Source: an uncultured Spirochaetaceae bacterium
GTDB lineage: Bacteria; Spirochaetota; Spirochaetia; Sphaerochaetales; Sphaerochaetaceae
Assembly (NCBI GenBank): GCA_944389025.1
Contig: CALXKU010000011.1
Span: 1 to 64,000 of the forward strand
Direction of reading: 5' to 3'
DNA: 64,000 nucleotides
The notes under the pieces were generated by a model. That model saw nothing but the letters and a program-made list of their open reading frames with translations. It searched no databases and was not told the DNA's origin. Both the position numbers and the translations under genes were made by a program. This document shows, in pieces, positions 8,812-22,475 of the stretch. Position 1 is the stretch's first letter. Each line of letters begins with the position of its first letter.

Positions 8812-8822
8812 AGCTTATGAAG

Positions 8823-9269
8823 ATGATTACGGGGATTTACAGTACGAACGTTGACGATAAGGGCAGGATACTGCTTCCTTCTCGAATGCGTCAGGCTCTA
8901 CAGTCCCAGGAGCTGGTCGTACTTCCCGGTCTTGATGAGAACCATTTGATGCTTATGACTCCTTCCTACTTCGAAGATCGGTTTTCCCAGGCTGTGCTTT
9001 CCTCTGATACAGCAATGTTCGACAGTGGAAAGCGCAGCTTAATTAGAAGACTCATTGCACCTGCCGTATATATCGATCAGGATGCCTCGGGAAGGATCAA
9101 CATACCACAGAACATGAGGGAGAAATACTCGATTCTCGCAAAGAGTGAGGTCACTCTGGTGGGAACGGGTTTTGCTATAGAAGTCTGGAACTCTGAAACT
9201 TACAATAAGGCAATGGAAGAAGAGAGCGAGAGTCTTTCCAGTCTGGCTGATAGGCTAAGGAGCGAGTGA
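8823..9269 (+). CDS. mraZ: transcriptional regulator MraZ
   Basis: MraZ is an AbrB-fold, ring-forming DNA-binding protein that controls its own division and cell-wall cluster. It has two tandem copies of the swapped-hairpin domain; the family D-x-KGR / P-x-x-R element appears as DDKGRILLPSRMR and again as DASGRINIPQNMR. Length is about 148 residues. GGTGAG at 8808-8813 suits the ATG at 8823 (MITGIYS) better than the ATG at 8817, where the spacing is only three bases. It is the first gene of an unbroken run to ftsZ. The upstream repeats are its probable operator. Confidence 0.95.
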   Translation: MITGIYSTNVDDKGRILLPSRMRQALQSQELVVLPGLDENHLMLMTPSYFEDRFSQAVLSSDTAMFDSGKRSLIRRLIAPAVYIDQDASGRINIPQNMREKYSILAKSEVTLVGTGFAIEVWNSETYNKAMEEESESLSSLADRLRSE

Positions 9270-10159
9270 TGGAAATATTACATTACCCAGTGCTCCATGA
9301 GCCGGTGCTGGAATATCTTGCATTGAGTACGGATGAAGAAGCAGTGATGATCGATTGCACGACGGGGGAGGGCGGACACAGCAACCTTTTCCTCTCCCGC
9401 TTTCCCCGTCTGCACGTCATCGGTATCGACCGTGATAAGGAAATCCAGAAGAAAGCAATTGAGAGGCTGAGCATTTACGGGGAAAGGTTCACACCTGTGA
9501 ATGCATGGTTCGATGATTACCTCAAAAGTGCTGAAAGCTCAAGTGCCGACAGGATTCTCTTCGATCTCGGAATTTCCACTTTCCACTATGAGGAGAGCAG
9601 GAGAGGGTTTTCTTTCAGAAAGGACGAGAGGCTCGATATGCGTCTTAATGAGAATGCCACTCTCAGTGCCGCTACTATTGTGAACACGTATGCGGAAGAG
9701 GAACTTGCTGACCTCATTTACCGCTATGGCGAGGAGCGTTATTCAAGGCGCATAGCAAGGGCATTCGTGGAATATAGAGAAAAGAAGCCCATTGAGACGA
9801 GTAAGGAAGCTGAGGATATCATCTTCCACGCAGTACCGAAAGAATACCGTTATGGAAGGATCAGCCCTGCAACGAGAACATTCCAGGCTTTGCGGATAGA
9901 GGTTAATGGGGAACTGGATAGGATCAAACCTTCTCTTCTTGAAGCGATCAGGGTTCTAAAAAGCGGTGGCAGGCTTGCTGTCATCACTTTCCATAGCCTT
10001 GAGGACAGGATTGTCAAGTGGACTTTCAAAGAAGAGGCTGCGAAGGAGAATCCTGCTATCAGGATCATAACAAAGAAACCTGTGATTCCAGATGAGAAAG
10101 AAGAGAAGGAGAACGCACCTTCCAGAAGTGCGAAACTTAGGGTGGTTGAGAAGATATGA
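9269..10159 (+). CDS. rsmH: 16S rRNA (cytosine-1402-N4)-methyltransferase
   Basis: RsmH (MraW) adds the N4-methyl group to C1402 of 16S rRNA using S-adenosylmethionine. The start HYPVLHEPVL is diagnostic, followed by the SAM-binding TTGEGGHS and the D-LGIS block (FDLGISTFHYEE). The C-terminal GRLAVITFHSLEDRIVK is the family signature. It has full length at 296 residues. Its ATG overlaps the mraZ stop, with TAAGGAG upstream. This is its standard place directly after mraZ. Confidence 0.96.
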   Translation: MEILHYPVLHEPVLEYLALSTDEEAVMIDCTTGEGGHSNLFLSRFPRLHVIGIDRDKEIQKKAIERLSIYGERFTPVNAWFDDYLKSAESSSADRILFDLGISTFHYEESRRGFSFRKDERLDMRLNENATLSAATIVNTYAEEELADLIYRYGEERYSRRIARAFVEYREKKPIETSKEAEDIIFHAVPKEYRYGRISPATRTFQALRIEVNGELDRIKPSLLEAIRVLKSGGRLAVITFHSLEDRIVKWTFKEEAAKENPAIRIITKKPVIPDEKEEKENAPSRSAKLRVVEKI

Positions 10160-10434
10160 GAGAGAGCACGTTCAGATTTGACATTAGGGAAAAGACGCTG
10201 GTTATCATGGCGTTCGTATTCATATTCCTTTCACTTTTCATTCCTCTTTGGCAGATTGGTGTCAACCATAGTCTTGAGCTTAAGATCAGGAATGACGAGA
10301 TTGCGCTGAGGGAGCTTAACGCGGAGGAAAGGAGGGTTCGCATTAGTCTTGCCGAAAGCGAGGCAGAATGGGAAAACAGGGTGGTCCTTTCATCTGTGAA
10401 TGAGATGTCGTTGCGTCTTTCACAGCTTGATTAA
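10156..10434 (+). CDS. ftsL: FtsL-like division protein
   Basis: This 92-residue protein has one membrane segment (about residues 14-34, rich in Phe, Ile and Leu). A charged helical region follows (about 38-80, regular Glu, Arg and Leu) and is predicted to form a coiled coil in the periplasm. Size, topology and position directly after rsmH match FtsL; sequence alone is too divergent to prove it. It overlaps rsmH by ATGA. In typical clusters ftsI comes next, but here it is followed by a 119-base gap and ftsW. FtsL would tether FtsQ and FtsW at the division site. Confidence 0.7.
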   Translation: MRESTFRFDIREKTLVIMAFVFIFLSLFIPLWQIGVNHSLELKIRNDEIALRELNAEERRVRISLAESEAEWENRVVLSSVNEMSLRLSQLD

Positions 10435-10521: not shown

Positions 10522-10557
10522 ATGGCTCTCCTTCTTCTTTTACGGGATGGTGTATGA
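10522..10557 (+). CDS. 11-codon ORF with strong ribosome binding site
   Basis: A perfect AAAGGAGG (10507-10514) lies seven bases before an ATG that opens an 11-codon frame, Leu-rich (MALLLLLRDGV). Its stop overlaps the ftsW-like ATG as ATGA. It occupies the slot where ftsI and the mur genes normally sit. It may be a leader that couples translation into ftsW, or the scar of a deleted ftsI whose start signals survive. Expression is not proven. Confidence 0.35.
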   Translation: MALLLLLRDGV

Positions 10558-11726
10558 GGGAGCAATACGAGAAGGACTACGATGATTTTACTCTTACCGA
10601 TTACAGCAGGGATGAGCTTTCCGGCTCCCTGAGTCCCTTTACCTTCTTCTGTGTCGTAGCAGTCCTCACACTCTTCGGCCTCATCATGGCGTACAGCGCA
10701 AGCTATGACGCATCTATTCGCGAAGGCTATTCCCACTATCATTATCTTCTGGAGATGGTGACTTATGGCATAATAGCTCTGGTCTCGGGAGTGATTCTTT
10801 TTTTCATGCCCCGTCATAAGCTTGAGAGGGTTTTCTATTTCGCACTTCCTCTCTCATTCCTGCTTCTCATAATCAATCTGATAGCTAAGATCGATATGGA
10901 CGGTGTCAGCATTCTTTCTGGATTCCCGGATTTAAACGGTTCTGATGCTGTGATGTTCTCATCCGTCCTTGCTCTTTCGTTCATTCTTCCAAGAATAAGG
11001 GACAAGGAGAGGCGTGGATGGTTTTACATCCTCATTCTGATCCTCAGCCTCATCATCTCCCTCATGATGATGCTTTCTGACAATTTCTGCTATTCCATTC
11101 TTTTTTTTCTTACGATGGCTGTCGCTCTTAAAAGTGGGAAGATGGGAGCGCGATATATCTTTTTCTTCTGTCTATTCAATGTGACGCTGCTTTGCTTCAT
11201 GTTCCTCAGCTCCTCTGAGTATCTTAATGCGTTCTTCTCACGTCTTATGCCATATTACTTTGACACTCCCGATGCGCATAATGCTTCTAACTGCCTCTCT
11301 GCGATAGCGGAAGGGGGGATTTTCGGGAAGGGAATAGGCTCATCTTACTATAAGCTCGGTCTGATTGATGGAATCGAGAATGAGTACGTATATGCCTCGA
11401 TAGCCGAGGAGACGGGATTCATAGGCACTCTGTTCATCATTCTGTTCCTGTTCCTCTTTCTCTTTCTTGCAATCAGATGCGCACATAGGAGCAAAAAGAC
11501 AGGTGATGAGTTTATAAACATAAGTTCTCTCTCATTTTCCTTCATGATAGTTTTCAAGGCTCTTTTAAGCATGCTATCAGCAGCCTCAGTCATACCTTCA
11601 TACGGCATTTCCATGCCGTTCTTCAGTGCCGACGGCTTCAGCTATTTTCTCACCATCGTCGAATGCGCGATTCTTTACAGGTTCATGCATATAACAGGAA
11701 GGGGATATGAGAAAGCGCGTGATTAG
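10554..11726 (+). CDS. ftsW: divergent FtsW/RodA-family membrane protein
   Basis: This is a 390-residue SEDS-family protein with about ten hydrophobic segments. FtsW normally polymerises glycan strands from lipid II with a class B PBP. EGGIFGKGIGSSYYK and YASIAEETGFIGT align with the family loop and following helix. The key motifs have drifted: the PEAHTDFIF Asp, needed for glycosyltransferase activity, is Glu277 (DGIENEYVY); GIPLPFISYGGS reads GISMPFFSADGFS; and QPSE and QPDLGT are unrecognisable. Position before ftsQ-ftsA-ftsZ supports the FtsW identity over RodA. Its start overlaps an 11-codon ORF and its end overlaps ftsQ by 20 bases. Confidence 0.82.
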   Translation: MREQYEKDYDDFTLTDYSRDELSGSLSPFTFFCVVAVLTLFGLIMAYSASYDASIREGYSHYHYLLEMVTYGIIALVSGVILFFMPRHKLERVFYFALPLSFLLLIINLIAKIDMDGVSILSGFPDLNGSDAVMFSSVLALSFILPRIRDKERRGWFYILILILSLIISLMMMLSDNFCYSILFFLTMAVALKSGKMGARYIFFFCLFNVTLLCFMFLSSSEYLNAFFSRLMPYYFDTPDAHNASNCLSAIAEGGIFGKGIGSSYYKLGLIDGIENEYVYASIAEETGFIGTLFIILFLFLFLFLAIRCAHRSKKTGDEFINISSLSFSFMIVFKALLSMLSAASVIPSYGISMPFFSADGFSYFLTIVECAILYRFMHITGRGYEKARD

Positions 11727-12424: not shown

Positions 12425-13660
12425 GTGGCTAATGATAAGACTTTGTTAGGACTGGACATAGGTACAAGTTCGATAAGAGCTGTCATCGCTTCTGTGACTA
12501 GGGATGGGCAGCTTATGATTGAATCCATCTCCGAGCGTCCCGGTGAAGGGGTGAAGGCTGGAAGCATTGTTAACATCGAACAGACACTCAAGGCGATAAA
12601 CAGCGTTATAAGTGATGCTGAGCTCCAGAGCGGGACAGAGGTCTCTTCTGCGATTCTCGGCATCGGAGGGGATCACATAGAGGGGATATCCAGCAATGGC
12701 GCGGTAGGCATAACCAGCAAGGACCAGGAAATAAAGAGTGATGACATACGTAAGTCCATAGAGATTGCAAGGGCCCGTGACATCCCACAGGATGAGGAGA
12801 TCCTTCATACACTGGTTCAGGATTTCCAGGTTGACTCGCGCTCCGGAATCAAAGATCCGATCGACATGCTTGGTCATCGTCTTGAGACGAGGGTTCTCCT
12901 TGTTCTAGGCTCATCATCAATATGCCAGAATCAGAGGAAGTGCGTTCAGAAGGCGGGACTGCAGGTTCAGCGCATGGTGCTTCAGCCACTAGCGGATAGC
13001 GAGGTCGTACTCACGAACGAAGAGAAGGAGATGGGTGCGATTGTAATCAACATCGGAGCAGGGACCACGAATATGATCTGCTATGTACAGGGTTCTCCAG
13101 TATATGTGGGTGGAATCGGATTCGGGGGTGACAACGTCACCGGGGATATAGCTTACATGCTCCAGCTTCCGCGTGTTGCCGCTGAATCCATAAAGATCAC
13201 TGATGGCTCCTGCCATACTCCGAGCGTGAGCCCTGATGAGATGATAATCACACCGGCAGTCGGGGGAAAGGCGAGCTTCCGCTTCCCGAAGAAGGAGCTT
13301 GCCAAGGTGATAGAGCCCAGAATGGCTGAGATTTTCTCTCTTCTTCAGGGAGAGCTCGAGAAACACGATATAAACGGTCCGTTCGGGGCTGGCATCGTAC
13401 TGGTTGGGGGAGGAAGTCTTCTAAGCGGTGCAACCGAGCTTGCAGCTGAGATTTTCCGCCTCCCCACGAGGCTTGGTTTCCCGCAGGCTATAAACGGGCT
13501 TGACAGGCAATATATTGATCCGAAATATTCCACGGTCCTCGGACTGGTGAAGATAGAGGCAAAAAGATACAGGGACAGCGGAGGCCACAACTCCTCCAGA
13601 GGAAAAGACAAGGGTGGTTTTTCCTCTAAGGTTAAAGGGCTGTTCGGGAAGCTGTTTTAA
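12425..13660 (+). CDS. ftsA: cell division protein FtsA
   Basis: FtsA is an actin-like ATPase that anchors FtsZ to the membrane. The phosphate-1 motif LGLDIGTSSIRAVI is at the N-terminus. NIGAGTTNMICY provides phosphate-2, and GIVLVGGGSLLSG is the adenosine motif. The last residues (SSKVKGLFGKLF) form a short amphipathic helix suited to membrane binding. At 411 residues it has normal length. The start is GTG, placed by the family N-terminus (MANDKTLLGLDIG). It is followed by ftsZ after 12 bases. Confidence 0.95.
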   Translation: MANDKTLLGLDIGTSSIRAVIASVTRDGQLMIESISERPGEGVKAGSIVNIEQTLKAINSVISDAELQSGTEVSSAILGIGGDHIEGISSNGAVGITSKDQEIKSDDIRKSIEIARARDIPQDEEILHTLVQDFQVDSRSGIKDPIDMLGHRLETRVLLVLGSSSICQNQRKCVQKAGLQVQRMVLQPLADSEVVLTNEEKEMGAIVINIGAGTTNMICYVQGSPVYVGGIGFGGDNVTGDIAYMLQLPRVAAESIKITDGSCHTPSVSPDEMIITPAVGGKASFRFPKKELAKVIEPRMAEIFSLLQGELEKHDINGPFGAGIVLVGGGSLLSGATELAAEIFRLPTRLGFPQAINGLDRQYIDPKYSTVLGLVKIEAKRYRDSGGHNSSRGKDKGGFSSKVKGLFGKLF

Positions 13661-13672
13661 GGGAGCGTTGAT

Positions 13673-14941
13673 ATGAGTTTTGATATTTTTGACATTGAAG
13701 ACACGACTACCGGAGAGCAGGCGGCTCCTACGATAATCAAGGTTGTCGGTGTAGGAGGCGGTGGAGGAAATGCCATCAACCGCATGATTGCGGCAGGGCT
13801 GAAAAAGGTCCAGTTCATCGCGCTTAACACCGATGTCCAGGCTCTTCAGCGCTCTAACGCGCAGACTAGGATTGCAATCGGTAAGGAGCTTACCGGAGGC
13901 CTTGGTGCAGGCGGACAGCCTGAAATCGGGGAGAAGGCCGCTATAGAGAGCAAGGATGAGATACGTGATGCGCTTGAGAATGCTGATATGGTTTTCATCA
14001 CCGCCGGCATGGGTGGTGGAACCGGAACGGGGGCGGCTGCGGTCGTTGCCGAGGTCGCACGCAATTGCGGAGCTCTCACAGTTGCCGTAGTGACACTGCC
14101 TTTCGCATTTGAGGGAAAGAAGAAACTCGCTCTTGCTCAGCAGGGCATTGAAAGGCTGAGAAAGCAGGTTGATACCCTCATCCTGATTCCGAATCAGCAT
14201 CTGCTGAACATCGTTGATAACAATACTCCGATAAAGCAGGCTTTCATAATGGCCGACAGCGCGCTTTTACAGTCGGTGCAGGGAATATCCGATCTCATAA
14301 CGGAGCCTGGAGAGATAAATATCGATTTTGCTGATGTTAAGACGGTCATGAAAGGTAAGGGAGATGCCCTTATCGGTCTTGGCTACGCTGAGGGTGCTAA
14401 CAGGGCCATCGAGGCGGCCAAGTGCGCAGTAAGCAATCCTTTATTGGAAAACGCGTCAATCGATGGTGCTAAGAGCGTTCTTGTAAACCTTGCCGGAGGG
14501 GATAACCTCACAATCCAGGAATATCAGGATGTTGTTGAGATAATAACCGAAAACTGTGCGGATGACGTGCTCGTAATTGCCGGACAGTCATACAATCCCG
14601 CACTCGGCGACAGGATAAGGGTGACGGTTGTTGCCACCGGTTTTGAAAGGAAGCCTGAGGCGAACAGCCTCGACCTTGAGGCGGAAACTTACCGCACACG
14701 CTTTGCCGAGAGAAGCCGTGAGGAGAGTCTGAGGGAAGCCGAGGAGAGGGAAAGAGAGAAAGAAAGAGAGAGGGAGAGGGAAAAGGAGAAGGAAAAGATC
14801 AATAATACCGATCCCGCGACAATTACGGTTAACCGCTGGCAGGATCTTCAGAAGCAGCTTGGAAAGAGGAGCGGTAATGCTAATGACTATTCTATTCCTG
14901 CCGTACTGAGATACTCCAGAAACGAAGATGACAACAGCTGA
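13673..14941 (+). CDS. ftsZ: cell division protein FtsZ
   Basis: FtsZ is the tubulin-like GTPase that forms the division ring. It has GVGGGGGNA (about residues 26-34), the tubulin signature [11 protein letters not shown] (about 117-127) and [11 protein letters not shown] highly charged linker of repeated Arg-Glu-Lys follows the globular domain. The C-terminal peptide (IPAVLRYSR) resembles the conserved IPxFLR tail that binds FtsA and other partners. At 422 residues it is slightly long because of the linker. GGGAG lies upstream of the ATG. It overlaps the next recombinase gene by 14 bases. Confidence 0.98.
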
Positions 14942-19375: not shown

Positions 19376-20461
19376 ATGAAATATGTGACCATAACCGCGA
19401 ACAGTTATGAAGAAGCTCTCAGAAAAGCTGAAGAGGAGTATGGTAAGAACATAAGGGTACACTCACGGAGGGATTACACCGTGGGAGGAGGTCTCTTTAC
19501 CAGAAAAAGAGGCAAATGTGATCTTACTCTCTATATTCCCCAGACAGATGTCAGAAAGGAGAAGGGAAGGGATGATGAGGCGATGCTTGAATTTGAAAAA
19601 GAAGCCAGAACTCCAGATCCCTCCTCCCTTTCTCGTGAGGAGAGGCTCAATACCGAGGTCTATCGCGGATCTTTGGAAAAACTTACTAAGGCAGAGAAGA
19701 TTCTTAATGAAAATGATATCTCAGAACCTCTGTATACTTTCTTGCTCAAGGATTTTTCCCTTGAGCAGAAGGTTGAGATGGAGATTGCAGGCAGAATAAT
19801 GGATTCCCTTCTGCTTAAAGGGAATATGGATAACAAATATGAGGTCCTGCTTGGTCCCACCGGTTCTGGAAAGACCACCACTTGTGCGAAGCTTGCCATT
19901 TCCTACCGCCAGAGCGGACTTAAAGTTTTCATCATAAGCCTGGATAGTTACCGTGTCGGTTCTTTCTATCAGATTGAGAGGCTTACCGATGCGCTTTCAA
20001 TCCCCCTTAGAACGGTTACTGATGAATCAATGTTCTCCTCCGCTCTTAAGGAAGCAGAGGATTATGACAAGGTTCTCGTGGATACGATGGGTCTTAGCAA
20101 GAGCGATGATGAACTCAATCTTAAGCTGAAGGGGATGCTTAACAATCTCAACAGGGCGAATTCTGAGTACATATTCATAGCTTCAGCTACAACAAAAGGT
20201 GAGGATCTTGAGAGCCTTTATGGAATATACCGCTCTTATCTGAGAATCGATAGCATGGTTGCAAGCAAGGTGGATGAATGCTCAAGTATCGGTACTCTTC
20301 TCTCATTCTCTTACAAACACAGCCTTCCTTTTGTCTATCTTACCAACGGGCAGAGGGTGCCGGAGGATATAGAGAAAGCTGAGAGCATTTCTCTTCTCAG
20401 ATACCTAAAATCACTTGATCTTGACCTTGATAGGTTTGAGCATCAGGTGAGAAACAGCTAA
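19376..20461 (+). CDS. flhF: FlhF, SRP-type GTPase
   Basis: FlhF is the third SRP GTPase and normally sets flagellar number and position. The N-terminus (KYVTITANSYEEALRKAEEEYG) is the characteristic FlhF start. An N-domain precedes the G-domain, with P-loop LLGPTGSGKTTTCAKLA (about residues 158-174), SLDSYRVGSFYQIERL, DTMGLS, and SKVDE in place of the guanine-specificity TKLDE. At 361 residues it is full length. No flagellar genes accompany it here. It ends with a 4-base overlap with the convergent PBP-like gene. Confidence 0.9.
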   Translation: MKYVTITANSYEEALRKAEEEYGKNIRVHSRRDYTVGGGLFTRKRGKCDLTLYIPQTDVRKEKGRDDEAMLEFEKEARTPDPSSLSREERLNTEVYRGSLEKLTKAEKILNENDISEPLYTFLLKDFSLEQKVEMEIAGRIMDSLLLKGNMDNKYEVLLGPTGSGKTTTCAKLAISYRQSGLKVFIISLDSYRVGSFYQIERLTDALSIPLRTVTDESMFSSALKEAEDYDKVLVDTMGLSKSDDELNLKLKGMLNNLNRANSEYIFIASATTKGEDLESLYGIYRSYLRIDSMVASKVDECSSIGTLLSFSYKHSLPFVYLTNGQRVPEDIEKAESISLLRYLKSLDLDLDRFEHQVRNS

Positions 20462-21417
20462 AAGTGAAGCATCTGGGAGAATTCGATTAAAGCGAGTTCT
20501 CCCTTCTTCTCATCGTCGGCCACGGACAGCAGCACAAAGCCGTTATCGGTGTAACGTGCTATAGCGTGCCGGCCGTTTATTTCACTCTTTTTATCATTTG
20601 GTCTCATATTGCTCTCTGTCCTTTCCCCTTTGAGTATTGTGCACGTCTTTCCGTCGAGTGCGAATGATATGGCACTGAAGTCTATATCCTCAGCATTTTT
20701 GCTGCTGAGTGCGAGGGCATAAGTCTCCCCGCTCATGTAATCAAAGAGGGCGAGCATCAGATATTCGTTTTCGTCTTTGTAGCTTGCAACAATATGGTCC
20801 GCCGTATATTGCATTCTCTGACTCATGGAGAGTGTTATATCCTCTCCCGTACTGAGTGCGTCGCTAATTGATAGCGGAGGCTCAAGAATGCTGTCATAAA
20901 CACTCTCTGCGCTGAAGGAGGAGCTCTCCGCCTCACGGCCTATGATTTCTATTCCATGCACCCCTGACGGGTATATTCTTTCCCTTATCCTTTCAAGGCT
21001 GATAAGATGGTCGAAATTCTCTTTTCTCATAAGAGAAAGGAAAGCCTCAATCTCAGAGCTTAGAAGATTTGTTCTCAGTTCAAGCTTTTCTCCTTTTCTT
21101 ATCATGTTTTCAAGAACGACTGGATTGATATCCACATACGGGGATACCGTGGAAGAAAACCTGCTTACCTCATTAACCCGCTCGGAATCTATTGAGAGAA
21201 AGTAGTCATTCCTGTCCATTGCAAGTATGTTACCGCTTCTGTCATATATGGTACCTCGGAAGTACTCTGTTTCTATCCTGGGATCCCTGTAGTTCGTGTT
21301 GATCACCCCTTCTTCGATGAAGAGGGTCATCAGTCTGGCAATAAGAAGGAGGGAGAGAAGGAAGAGGAAGATGAATATCGTTATTCCCTCCCTTTCTGTT
21401 TTTCCATTTTTCGGCAT
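20458..21417 (-). CDS. penicillin-binding protein remnant without transpeptidase domain
   Basis: This 319-residue protein has one N-terminal membrane helix (about 11-33) and then RGTIYDRSGNILA (54-66), the signature of the class B PBP dimerisation domain. The pedestal continues to GEDITLSMSQRMQYTAD and a DYMSGETYALA element, which match the LTID..Q...E and TGEILA stretch just before the catalytic domain. The transpeptidase domain (~300 residues with SxxK, SxN, KTG) is absent; only about 70 residues follow. The open frame is clean, so the remnant is probably expressed. It may act as a scaffold with FtsW. No Shine-Dalgarno sequence is visible. It is divergent from the LysM/M23 gene. Confidence 0.85.
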   Translation of the reverse strand: MPKNGKTEREGITIFIFLFLLSLLLIARLMTLFIEEGVINTNYRDPRIETEYFRGTIYDRSGNILAMDRNDYFLSIDSERVNEVSRFSSTVSPYVDINPVVLENMIRKGEKLELRTNLLSSEIEAFLSLMRKENFDHLISLERIRERIYPSGVHGIEIIGREAESSSFSAESVYDSILEPPLSISDALSTGEDITLSMSQRMQYTADHIVASYKDENEYLMLALFDYMSGETYALALSSKNAEDIDFSAISFALDGKTCTILKGERTESNMRPNDKKSEINGRHAIARYTDNGFVLLSVADDEKKGELALIEFSQMLHF

Positions 21418-21515: not shown

Positions 21516-22475
21516 ATGAGTAGAAACGATTATGATGACATGGGTCCCTCATTTTCCCGCAGATCGAAAGGAGATAACAGAAAGACATATCTCATCTCTT
21601 TCATGGGGGTTCTCATTGTCCTCATACTCATACTTCTATATATAGTTTTCCGTCCAGTCGATGGAAAAGATGATGCGTTTGAGCCTGGTTCTTCTTCCAG
21701 CATGGAACTTAGCATACCCTCCGTTGAGAGCATACCGGTAGAAAGAAGCACCTCATTCTCTGTTGGTGAAAAGAATGTTTCCGATAAACCATTCTTTTCA
21801 TATTACACAGTTAAGGGTAGTGACAGTCTTTCCTCGATAGCCAAAGCTTTCGGAATATCTGAAGCAACAATCTCGATATTGAATGATATTGATGATAGCA
21901 CAGACCTAACGGAGGGCTTGATGCTTTCCATACCGCAGATGGATGGTCTGAAATACACGGTGAAGGAAGGCGATACGCTATCTCTAGTGCTATCTGAATA
22001 TCCTGTAAGCGTCGATGAGGAGTATGTAAGAGAAATCAACAGCATCAGTGGCGAGCTTCGCGAAGGAGCGGAGATTTTCATTCCGATGAGCCTTTCTGAT
22101 GATGATATCTCTTTCATAAGTCCGTCCGACGGGGTGATCAGTCATTCATTCAATGAGGATTTCAACGGAGTCCCATTAAAAGGTGTTGCCTTCTCTCAGG
22201 AGGCAGGAAGTGCTGTAAGAGCAGTTGCCGATGGTGTTGTAACCGATGCGGGGAATGACAGTGAGTTCGGACGCTATGTAAGCCTTATGCATGAGAACGG
22301 CCTGAGAAGCAGCTATTACTGTCTTGAGGTTGTCAATGTGAAAATAGGGCAGAGGGTAAGCAGTGGGGAAGTTGTCGGGACTGTCGGATTCTCGAACAGG
22401 ACTTTCGGCACGCCTACGCTTTATTTCACGATAGAGCAGGGTTCTCTGATTCAGGATCCACTTGCCTTTTTCTGA
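21516..22475 (+). CDS. LysM-LysM-M23 family protein lacking zinc ligands
   Basis: This 319-residue envelope protein has a membrane anchor (about 25-46), two LysM domains (YTVKGSDSLSSIAKAFGIS and YTVKEGDTLSLVLSEYP) and a C-terminal LytM/M23 domain. The Gly-Val scaffold is kept (GSAVRAVADGVV, GQRVSSGEVVGTVG), but the zinc ligands are gone. The first HxGvD reads LKGVAFS (near 222), the YxH element reads YYCL (near 267), and HLHF reads TLYF (near 301). It should therefore bind but not cut peptide, like the EnvC/NlpD type of LytM factors. GAAGGTAGT precedes the ATG. Confidence 0.88.
   Translation: MSRNDYDDMGPSFSRRSKGDNRKTYLISFMGVLIVLILILLYIVFRPVDGKDDAFEPGSSSSMELSIPSVESIPVERSTSFSVGEKNVSDKPFFSYYTVKGSDSLSSIAKAFGISEATISILNDIDDSTDLTEGLMLSIPQMDGLKYTVKEGDTLSLVLSEYPVSVDEEYVREINSISGELREGAEIFIPMSLSDDDISFISPSDGVISHSFNEDFNGVPLKGVAFSQEAGSAVRAVADGVVTDAGNDSEFGRYVSLMHENGLRSSYYCLEVVNVKIGQRVSSGEVVGTVGFSNRTFGTPTLYFTIEQGSLIQDPLAFF

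Follow-up and report, generated by a model that had tools for sequence, protein, structure and literature searches.

The stretch examined here, called the window below, comprises 64,000 nucleotides of contig CALXKU010000011.1 from an uncultured Spirochaetaceae bacterium (assembly GCA_944389025.1). On its minus strand, at positions 20458-21417, lies an open reading frame (ORF) of 319 codons for a class B penicillin-binding protein (PBP) whose transpeptidase domain has been hollowed out, hereafter the stub. The same gene cluster also includes ftsW, which encodes the genome's only SEDS protein. Class B PBPs and FtsW are seen as enzymes that build the septal wall; the present analysis deals with their retention in an organism that appears to lack a peptidoglycan pathway.

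The stub gene and its product

The frame runs from an ATG start to a TAG stop with no internal stop codon. The first-pass annotation had reported it as intact and free of frameshifts, giving no strand, and comparison within the genus bears this out: 44 of 48 genomes contain a homologous stop-free frame, usually of about 280-340 amino acids, and in all 28 loci tested it adjoins flhF in the opposite orientation, with a LysM-LytM gene present in 25. Because stop-free homologous frames and conserved synteny recur across the genus, the stub is neither a chance ORF nor the result of a frameshift or assembly error.

Of the two Pfam profiles that the first-pass annotation had named, PBP_dimer (PF03717) matched stub residues 54-165 (E 3e-5; 24.9 bits, curated cut-off 24.4), and Transpeptidase (PF00905) matched neither the stub nor anything else in its genome. 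A transpeptidase in the following ORF or elsewhere, which would have spoken against the proposed loss, was found neither in the genome nor in the genus. The NCBIfam PBP2 model TIGR03423 matched residues 13-159 (E 2e-8) with 33 bits, far below its cut-off of 455, and a profile built from the genus stubs had its best PDB matches among class B PBPs (4ovd with E 6e-24, followed by S. aureus PBP1, SpoVD, and gonococcal PBP2). Like FtsI/PBP3 and PBP2 of SEDS-class B PBP complexes, the stub has one N-terminal transmembrane (TM) helix, placed at residues 6-35 by the AlphaFold model, the RGxIxDRxGxxLA motif, starting with R54-G-T-I-Y-D-R, and a PBP_dimer pedestal. About 82 residues, not the 70 or so first estimated, follow the pedestal strand SGETYAL. 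The transpeptidase motifs SxxK, SxN, and KTG are absent. The sequence KTCT near residue 254 was rejected as a residual KTG box, as relatives show YTIL or nothing at that place.

Origin by internal deletion

By FtsA, the closest named relatives are Candidatus Ornithospirochaeta species, together with Spirochaetaceae metagenome-assembled genomes (MAGs), and the genome belongs to Candidatus Ornithospirochaeta. Nine walled sister genomes encode a full PBP of 549-560 amino acids in the position and orientation of the stub, between hslVU-flhF and LysM-LytM. Their gene order (ftsW, ftsA, ftsZ, xer, xer, hslV, hslU, flhF, PBP on the other strand, LysM-LytM) is that of the window, where the stub replaces the PBP. 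Judged by this shared position and gene order, and by alignment with the full-length proteins, the stub is the positional ortholog and in-place descendant of the single class B PBP of the family. This agrees with the suggestion that it could be what remains of a PBP. The accompanying statement that spirochaetes of this kind lack PBPs was incorrect in detail: walled members of the family as a rule carry exactly one, with a full transpeptidase domain. What had been published as absent were the KEGG orthologs of PBP1a, 2, and C (PMC7738495).

Averaged over the genus, the stubs cover 98% of positions 1-200 of the full-length reference, 79% of 201-250, 12% of 251-490, and 54% of 491-554. Alignment thus places an internal deletion of about 230 residues, with SxxK, SxN, and KTG all inside the deleted part. 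The join is clearer in other wall-less genera, where a short linker leads from '...YPFYDLN' to '...PRYLVFVGSVNP...GLAAQNKL', a homologue of the final strands and helix of the transpeptidase domain. The AlphaFold2 model of the stub (mean predicted local distance difference test, pLDDT, 87) has strands at residues 220-226, 231-237, 276-280, 283-289, and 294-300 and a final helix at 303-318. In VIA-align 2 comparisons, model residues 48-319 aligned with residues 56-551 of P. aeruginosa PBP3 (Z 18.1, root-mean-square deviation 4.6, 263 residues), and residues 7-319 with FtsI of the FtsWIQLB complex 8p1u (Z 17.3, 301 residues).

The overlap with FtsI/PBP3 and PBP2 hence reaches the C-terminal end of the transpeptidase fold with the catalytic lobe missing, so that the domain is hollowed out rather than simply cut off. 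The first-pass view that the whole transpeptidase domain had gone holds for the lobe with the catalytic motifs, deleted internally, and fails for the first and last beta-strands and the C-terminal helix, which are kept or remodelled. The loss of these motifs and of some 230 catalytic-lobe residues, in a host with no detectable peptidoglycan pathway, sets the stub apart from FtsI/PBP3 and PBP2.

Apparent loss of the peptidoglycan pathway

The gene searches covered 139 genomes of the family, and their results also served to sort whole genera as walled (66 genomes) or wall-less (73 genomes); Transpeptidase was matched above cut-off in 59 of the 66 and none of the 73, MraY in 63 and none, MurA above cut-off in 63 and none, and Amidase_3 in 65 and none. 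The wall-less set spans eight genera: the window's genus contributes all of its 48 genomes, and related genera the other 25. Mur ligase domains (MurC-F) numbered four to six in most walled genomes versus zero to two in wall-less ones, where most matches were weak and would fit folate synthesis. One otherwise wall-less genome has a strong Mur ligase match (E 6e-47), at G156:C62:3437-4000, which may represent contamination or a MurT-like protein. An L,D-transpeptidase was rejected as a substitute cross-linker, YkuD matches being confined to genomes G065 and G142.

In the window's genus, MraY, MurA, MurC-F, and DD- and LD-transpeptidases were not found, MurB, MurG, MurJ, and the class A PBP glycosyltransferase being outside the search. 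Defined by the absence of mraY, murA, MurC-F, and DD-/LD-transpeptidases, the organism of the window classifies as peptidoglycan-negative, and by gene content all 73 wall-less genomes look peptidoglycan-free. They make up a large group of gut spirochaetes, 73 of the 139 family genomes as sampled.

The lipid II pathway has apparently been lost here as in the peptidoglycan-negative bacteria of a published survey (PMC5814848) and in the PGn class (PMC8406291); unlike those, the spirochaetes have kept FtsW and a PBP shell, whereas the survey reported FtsW to be absent where the wall is lost. Bullifex porci and Sphaerochaeta are also non-helical spirochaetes with spherical cells, and growth of B. 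porci is unaffected by beta-lactams, but they still have murA-G, murJ, and mraY, and B. porci yielded muropeptides (PMC7738495).

Retention and selection

A PBP or its stub was present in 75 of 75 good genomes. Among the wall-less genomes, the stub was found in 68 of 73 (the 44 of 48 already mentioned in the genus), and a SEDS protein, FtsW, likewise in 68 of 73, including all 48 of the genus. Ratios of nonsynonymous to synonymous substitution (dN/dS), calculated according to Nei-Gojobori with saturated-dS pairs left out, lay mostly at 0.08-0.17 for the stub: close pairs within the genus gave 0.08-0.12, pairs from other wall-less genera 0.08-0.14, and more distant pairs up to 0.25, with values of about 0.1 in both pedestal and tail. 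For FtsW, two close pairs gave 0.02-0.04 and a third, whose members are further apart, 0.10. Both proteins are under strong purifying selection; for the stub, the first-pass annotation had suggested that selection may maintain it, and had named a ratio near 1 as the sign of neutral decay.

The missing active-site motifs and the removal of a large part of the domain could be taken as signs of a vestigial PBP in neutral decay after the loss of peptidoglycan. At the level of sequence evolution, neutral decay is refuted by the dN/dS values; the absence of stops from the matched stub frames of the genus, the retention of the stub across eight wall-less genera, and the confident globular model also speak against this explanation, which is to be considered highly improbable.

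A degraded FtsW

FtsW has been retained in altered form. SEDS profile scores fall from about 252-310 bits in full-length walled proteins to 28-154 bits in wall-less ones. The model of the window's FtsW (pLDDT 85) has the SEDS fold, with Z 39.8 to FtsW of 8p1u (338 residues), 30.8 to RodA, and 15.6 to WaaL; stub and FtsW models thus each match their counterparts in the FtsWIQLB complex. As to whether the stub belongs to the FtsI or the PBP2/MrdA subfamily, the low TIGR03423 score stands beside this greater closeness of the only SEDS protein to FtsW than to RodA.

Conservation was measured over the columns invariant in 11 walled FtsW proteins. In the N-terminus and TM1, 95% of these are kept in the genus and 81% in other wall-less genera; in the GKGxGxGxYK part of extracellular loop 4 (ECL4), 74% and 61%; in the GARRW-QPSE loop, 14% and 5%. 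The window's FtsW has lost the GARRW, QPSE, and SQGGTN motifs, the last of which is mostly lost across wall-less FtsW. The SEDS active site involves a catalytic Asp (D297 in E. coli), the Q147 loop, and the G371/G381 region (PMC8765783). The residue equivalent to D297 is Glu in the window's protein (NEYVY); five of the 18 Ornithospirochaeta species have Asp there. Conserved active-site residues are thus mostly lost, and this FtsW looks inactive. Invariant positions within the genus are Y9-D10-D11, G24-S25-S27-P28-F29-T30, TM1 residues, and several glycines. The N-terminal cytoplasmic motif YDD(F/W)...GS(L/F)SPFT (encoded at 10554-10650) is conserved in walled and wall-less members alike and is a candidate contact for FtsA or FtsZ.

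O-antigen ligases are structural relatives of SEDS proteins, and FtsW and stub together might now serve a different undecaprenyl-linked glycan, as a glycosyltransferase that the stub activates. The very strong constraint on FtsW in the two close pairs, the additional fold match to WaaL, and the Asp kept in five species would agree with such a role. It is nevertheless unlikely: no new set of invariant polar residues appears in the periplasmic loops, the genus invariants lying mainly in the cytoplasmic N-terminus, TM1, and glycines, and the Asp column is variable (E, D, S, Q, L, M, and others).

Uncross-linked glycan strands might still be made, or scavenged lipid II used, by a working FtsW activated by the stub. 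A state of this kind may exist elsewhere in the family, given two genomes of the walled genus g26, G063 and G065, in which MraY, MurA, Mur ligases, and SEDS are intact and the transpeptidase is dead. Their PBPs (G063:C30:13954-15363, L162; G065:C102:1708-3138, L163) have 472-478 amino acids, with SxxK replaced (YEPGMIIE...) and no KTG, and one of the two genomes, G065, is among those with a YkuD match. They are possible intermediates with a dead transpeptidase and an intact lipid II pathway, and possibly bacteria with uncross-linked or differently cross-linked peptidoglycan. For the window's genus, where MraY, MurA, and Mur ligases were missing from the searches and the SEDS active site is degraded, this explanation has very little probability. 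Since no peptidoglycan pathway was found and FtsW has lost most active-site motifs, the stub is unlikely to act as activator of a working wall polymerase. The first-pass annotation, which had proposed a possible non-enzymatic partner of FtsW or the divisome and is partly supported, had foreseen neither of these two losses.

A probable scaffold for division without peptidoglycan

The most economical reading, which we regard as probable, is that of a non-enzymatic FtsW-PBP scaffold for the FtsZ divisome that works without peptidoglycan. The lineage would have lost peptidoglycan synthesis, and the catalytic lobe of its only class B PBP would have been deleted, leaving the pedestal and membrane helix together with what is now a reduced rim of the transpeptidase sheet. 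FtsW would have kept its fold, the N-terminal YDD...GSLSPFT, TM1, and parts of ECL4 while losing most lipid II polymerase motifs. Together, and probably with FtsL and FtsQ, the two proteins would serve the FtsZ/FtsA divisome as a scaffold that lies in membrane and periplasm and links assembly of the Z-ring to constriction of the envelope in a peptidoglycan-free cell. At sequence level, this reading draws on orthology, motif loss, the failure to find the peptidoglycan genes searched for, the co-retention of both proteins, purifying selection, and predicted folds.

In known systems, the pedestal is the part of the PBP that binds SEDS and responds to FtsL. The TM helix of class B PBPs packs on TM8-9 of the SEDS partner, the pedestal contacts ECL4, and FtsQLB signals via FtsI to FtsW (PMC8078798); TM helix and pedestal, that is, SEDS contact parts, are among what the stub keeps. 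FtsI homologs can be essential while their transpeptidase activity is not, as for PBP2B of B. subtilis and in a comparable S. aureus case (PMC8078798). The stub would resemble these as a class B PBP that FtsW and the divisome need for something other than catalysis; in those bacteria, however, a working FtsW is activated while another PBP cross-links, whereas here no wall is apparent and FtsW is seemingly inactive.

Several points weigh against the scaffold. Genus g46 (three genomes) has the stub with no SEDS detected, so the pair is not strictly inseparable, and retention of the catalytic Asp in five species makes an altered FtsW transferase possible. The assignments of FtsL and FtsQ are probable and rest on position; the genomes are mainly draft assemblies, with MAGs as the named relatives. 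That stub and FtsW form a complex, are located at the division site, and perform the coupling is what we infer.

The retained FtsW and PBP suggest a cell-division job that needs no cell wall. Evolution has here removed both enzyme centres and, it seems, the wall, yet kept both proteins, separating structural from catalytic roles of the divisome core, which are hard to study in walled model bacteria because enzyme activity is essential there. In the open-access literature, and hence with no proof of absence, no report was found of a bacterium that lacks peptidoglycan yet has FtsW together with a PBP devoid of its transpeptidase.

Number of losses

In an rpoB tree (unrooted, with long branches), the wall-less genomes fell into the window's genus, g46, and a clade of g45, g27, g28, g32, g38, and g42, the last being sister (Shimodaira-Hasegawa-like approximate likelihood ratio 98) to the transpeptidase-bearing g31/g34. 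Forcing all wall-less genomes together was marginally rejected by the approximately unbiased (AU) test (p 0.0425), which disfavours a single peptidoglycan loss; with g46 excluded, forcing the window's genus with the g45 clade was rejected (p 0.00016). At least two independent losses with the same outcome are therefore favoured, a further reservation being that the AU rejection of a single loss is only marginal (p 0.04) and involves long branches. The broader proposal, that FtsW-class B PBP has a peptidoglycan-independent function in division and that at least two spirochaete lineages convergently stripped the complex to a purely structural form running FtsZ-based division of a peptidoglycan-free cell, we judge slightly better than even.

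In the g46 stubs (G160, G161, G162; L174-L176), more of the helical region of the transpeptidase survives and the catalytic motif is replaced; they may represent a different stage or an independent loss. RpoB has about 1305-1332 amino acids in g27, g28, g32, g38, and g42 (L205-L212) versus about 1170-1240 in most other genera, suggesting a shared insertion, which would support a clade of these genera.

Neighbouring genes

The annotated features of the window are collected in Table 1. Between rsmH and ftsW there is no murE, murF, mraY, or murD, whereas in walled sisters mraY immediately precedes ftsW. The probable FtsQ gives a tblastn match of 24-26% to the corresponding place in walled genus g26.

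Table 1. Features of the window around ftsW and the stub gene.
Feature	Coordinates	Strand	Basis and remarks
mraZ and rsmH, head of dcw cluster	8817..10159	+	
Probable FtsL, 92 aa, one hydrophobic stretch	10156..10434	+	Position between rsmH and ftsW, and sequence; no Pfam match
FtsW (SEDS), 390 aa	10554..11726	+	PF01098 E 2e-34; fold intact
Probable FtsQ, 238 aa	11707..12423	+	Position between ftsW and ftsA; no Pfam match
FtsA	12425..13660	+	PF14450 E 2e-32
FtsZ	13673..14941	+	PF00091 E 2e-52
FlhF-like SRP-type GTPase	19376..20461	+	Convergent neighbour of stub, synteny landmark
Hollowed-out class B PBP (stub), 319 aa	20458..21417	-	TM helix, RGTIYDR, pedestal, transpeptidase-fold rim; no SxxK/SxN/KTG
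LysM + degenerate M23 (LytM) protein	21516..22475	+	Divergent neighbour of stub; M23 metal and catalytic residues absent

The divergent LysM-LytM neighbour raises the question of a role of the stub outside division, for example in envelope attachment with this protein, FtsW being kept for a separate reason. Conservation of the divergent pair in wall-less genera and the g46 stubs with no detectable SEDS would fit such a role, but the conserved parts of the stub are those with which known class B PBPs bind SEDS, and stub and FtsW are both kept in nearly all wall-less genomes; we give it a small probability, somewhat below that of a re-purposed glycosyltransferase. The LysM-M23 protein itself persists in wall-less genera, in which neither a peptidoglycan ligand nor an Amidase_3 partner would be expected. 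A loss of its catalytic residues coincident with that of the wall was rejected, as the M23 catalytic residues are already absent in walled sisters.
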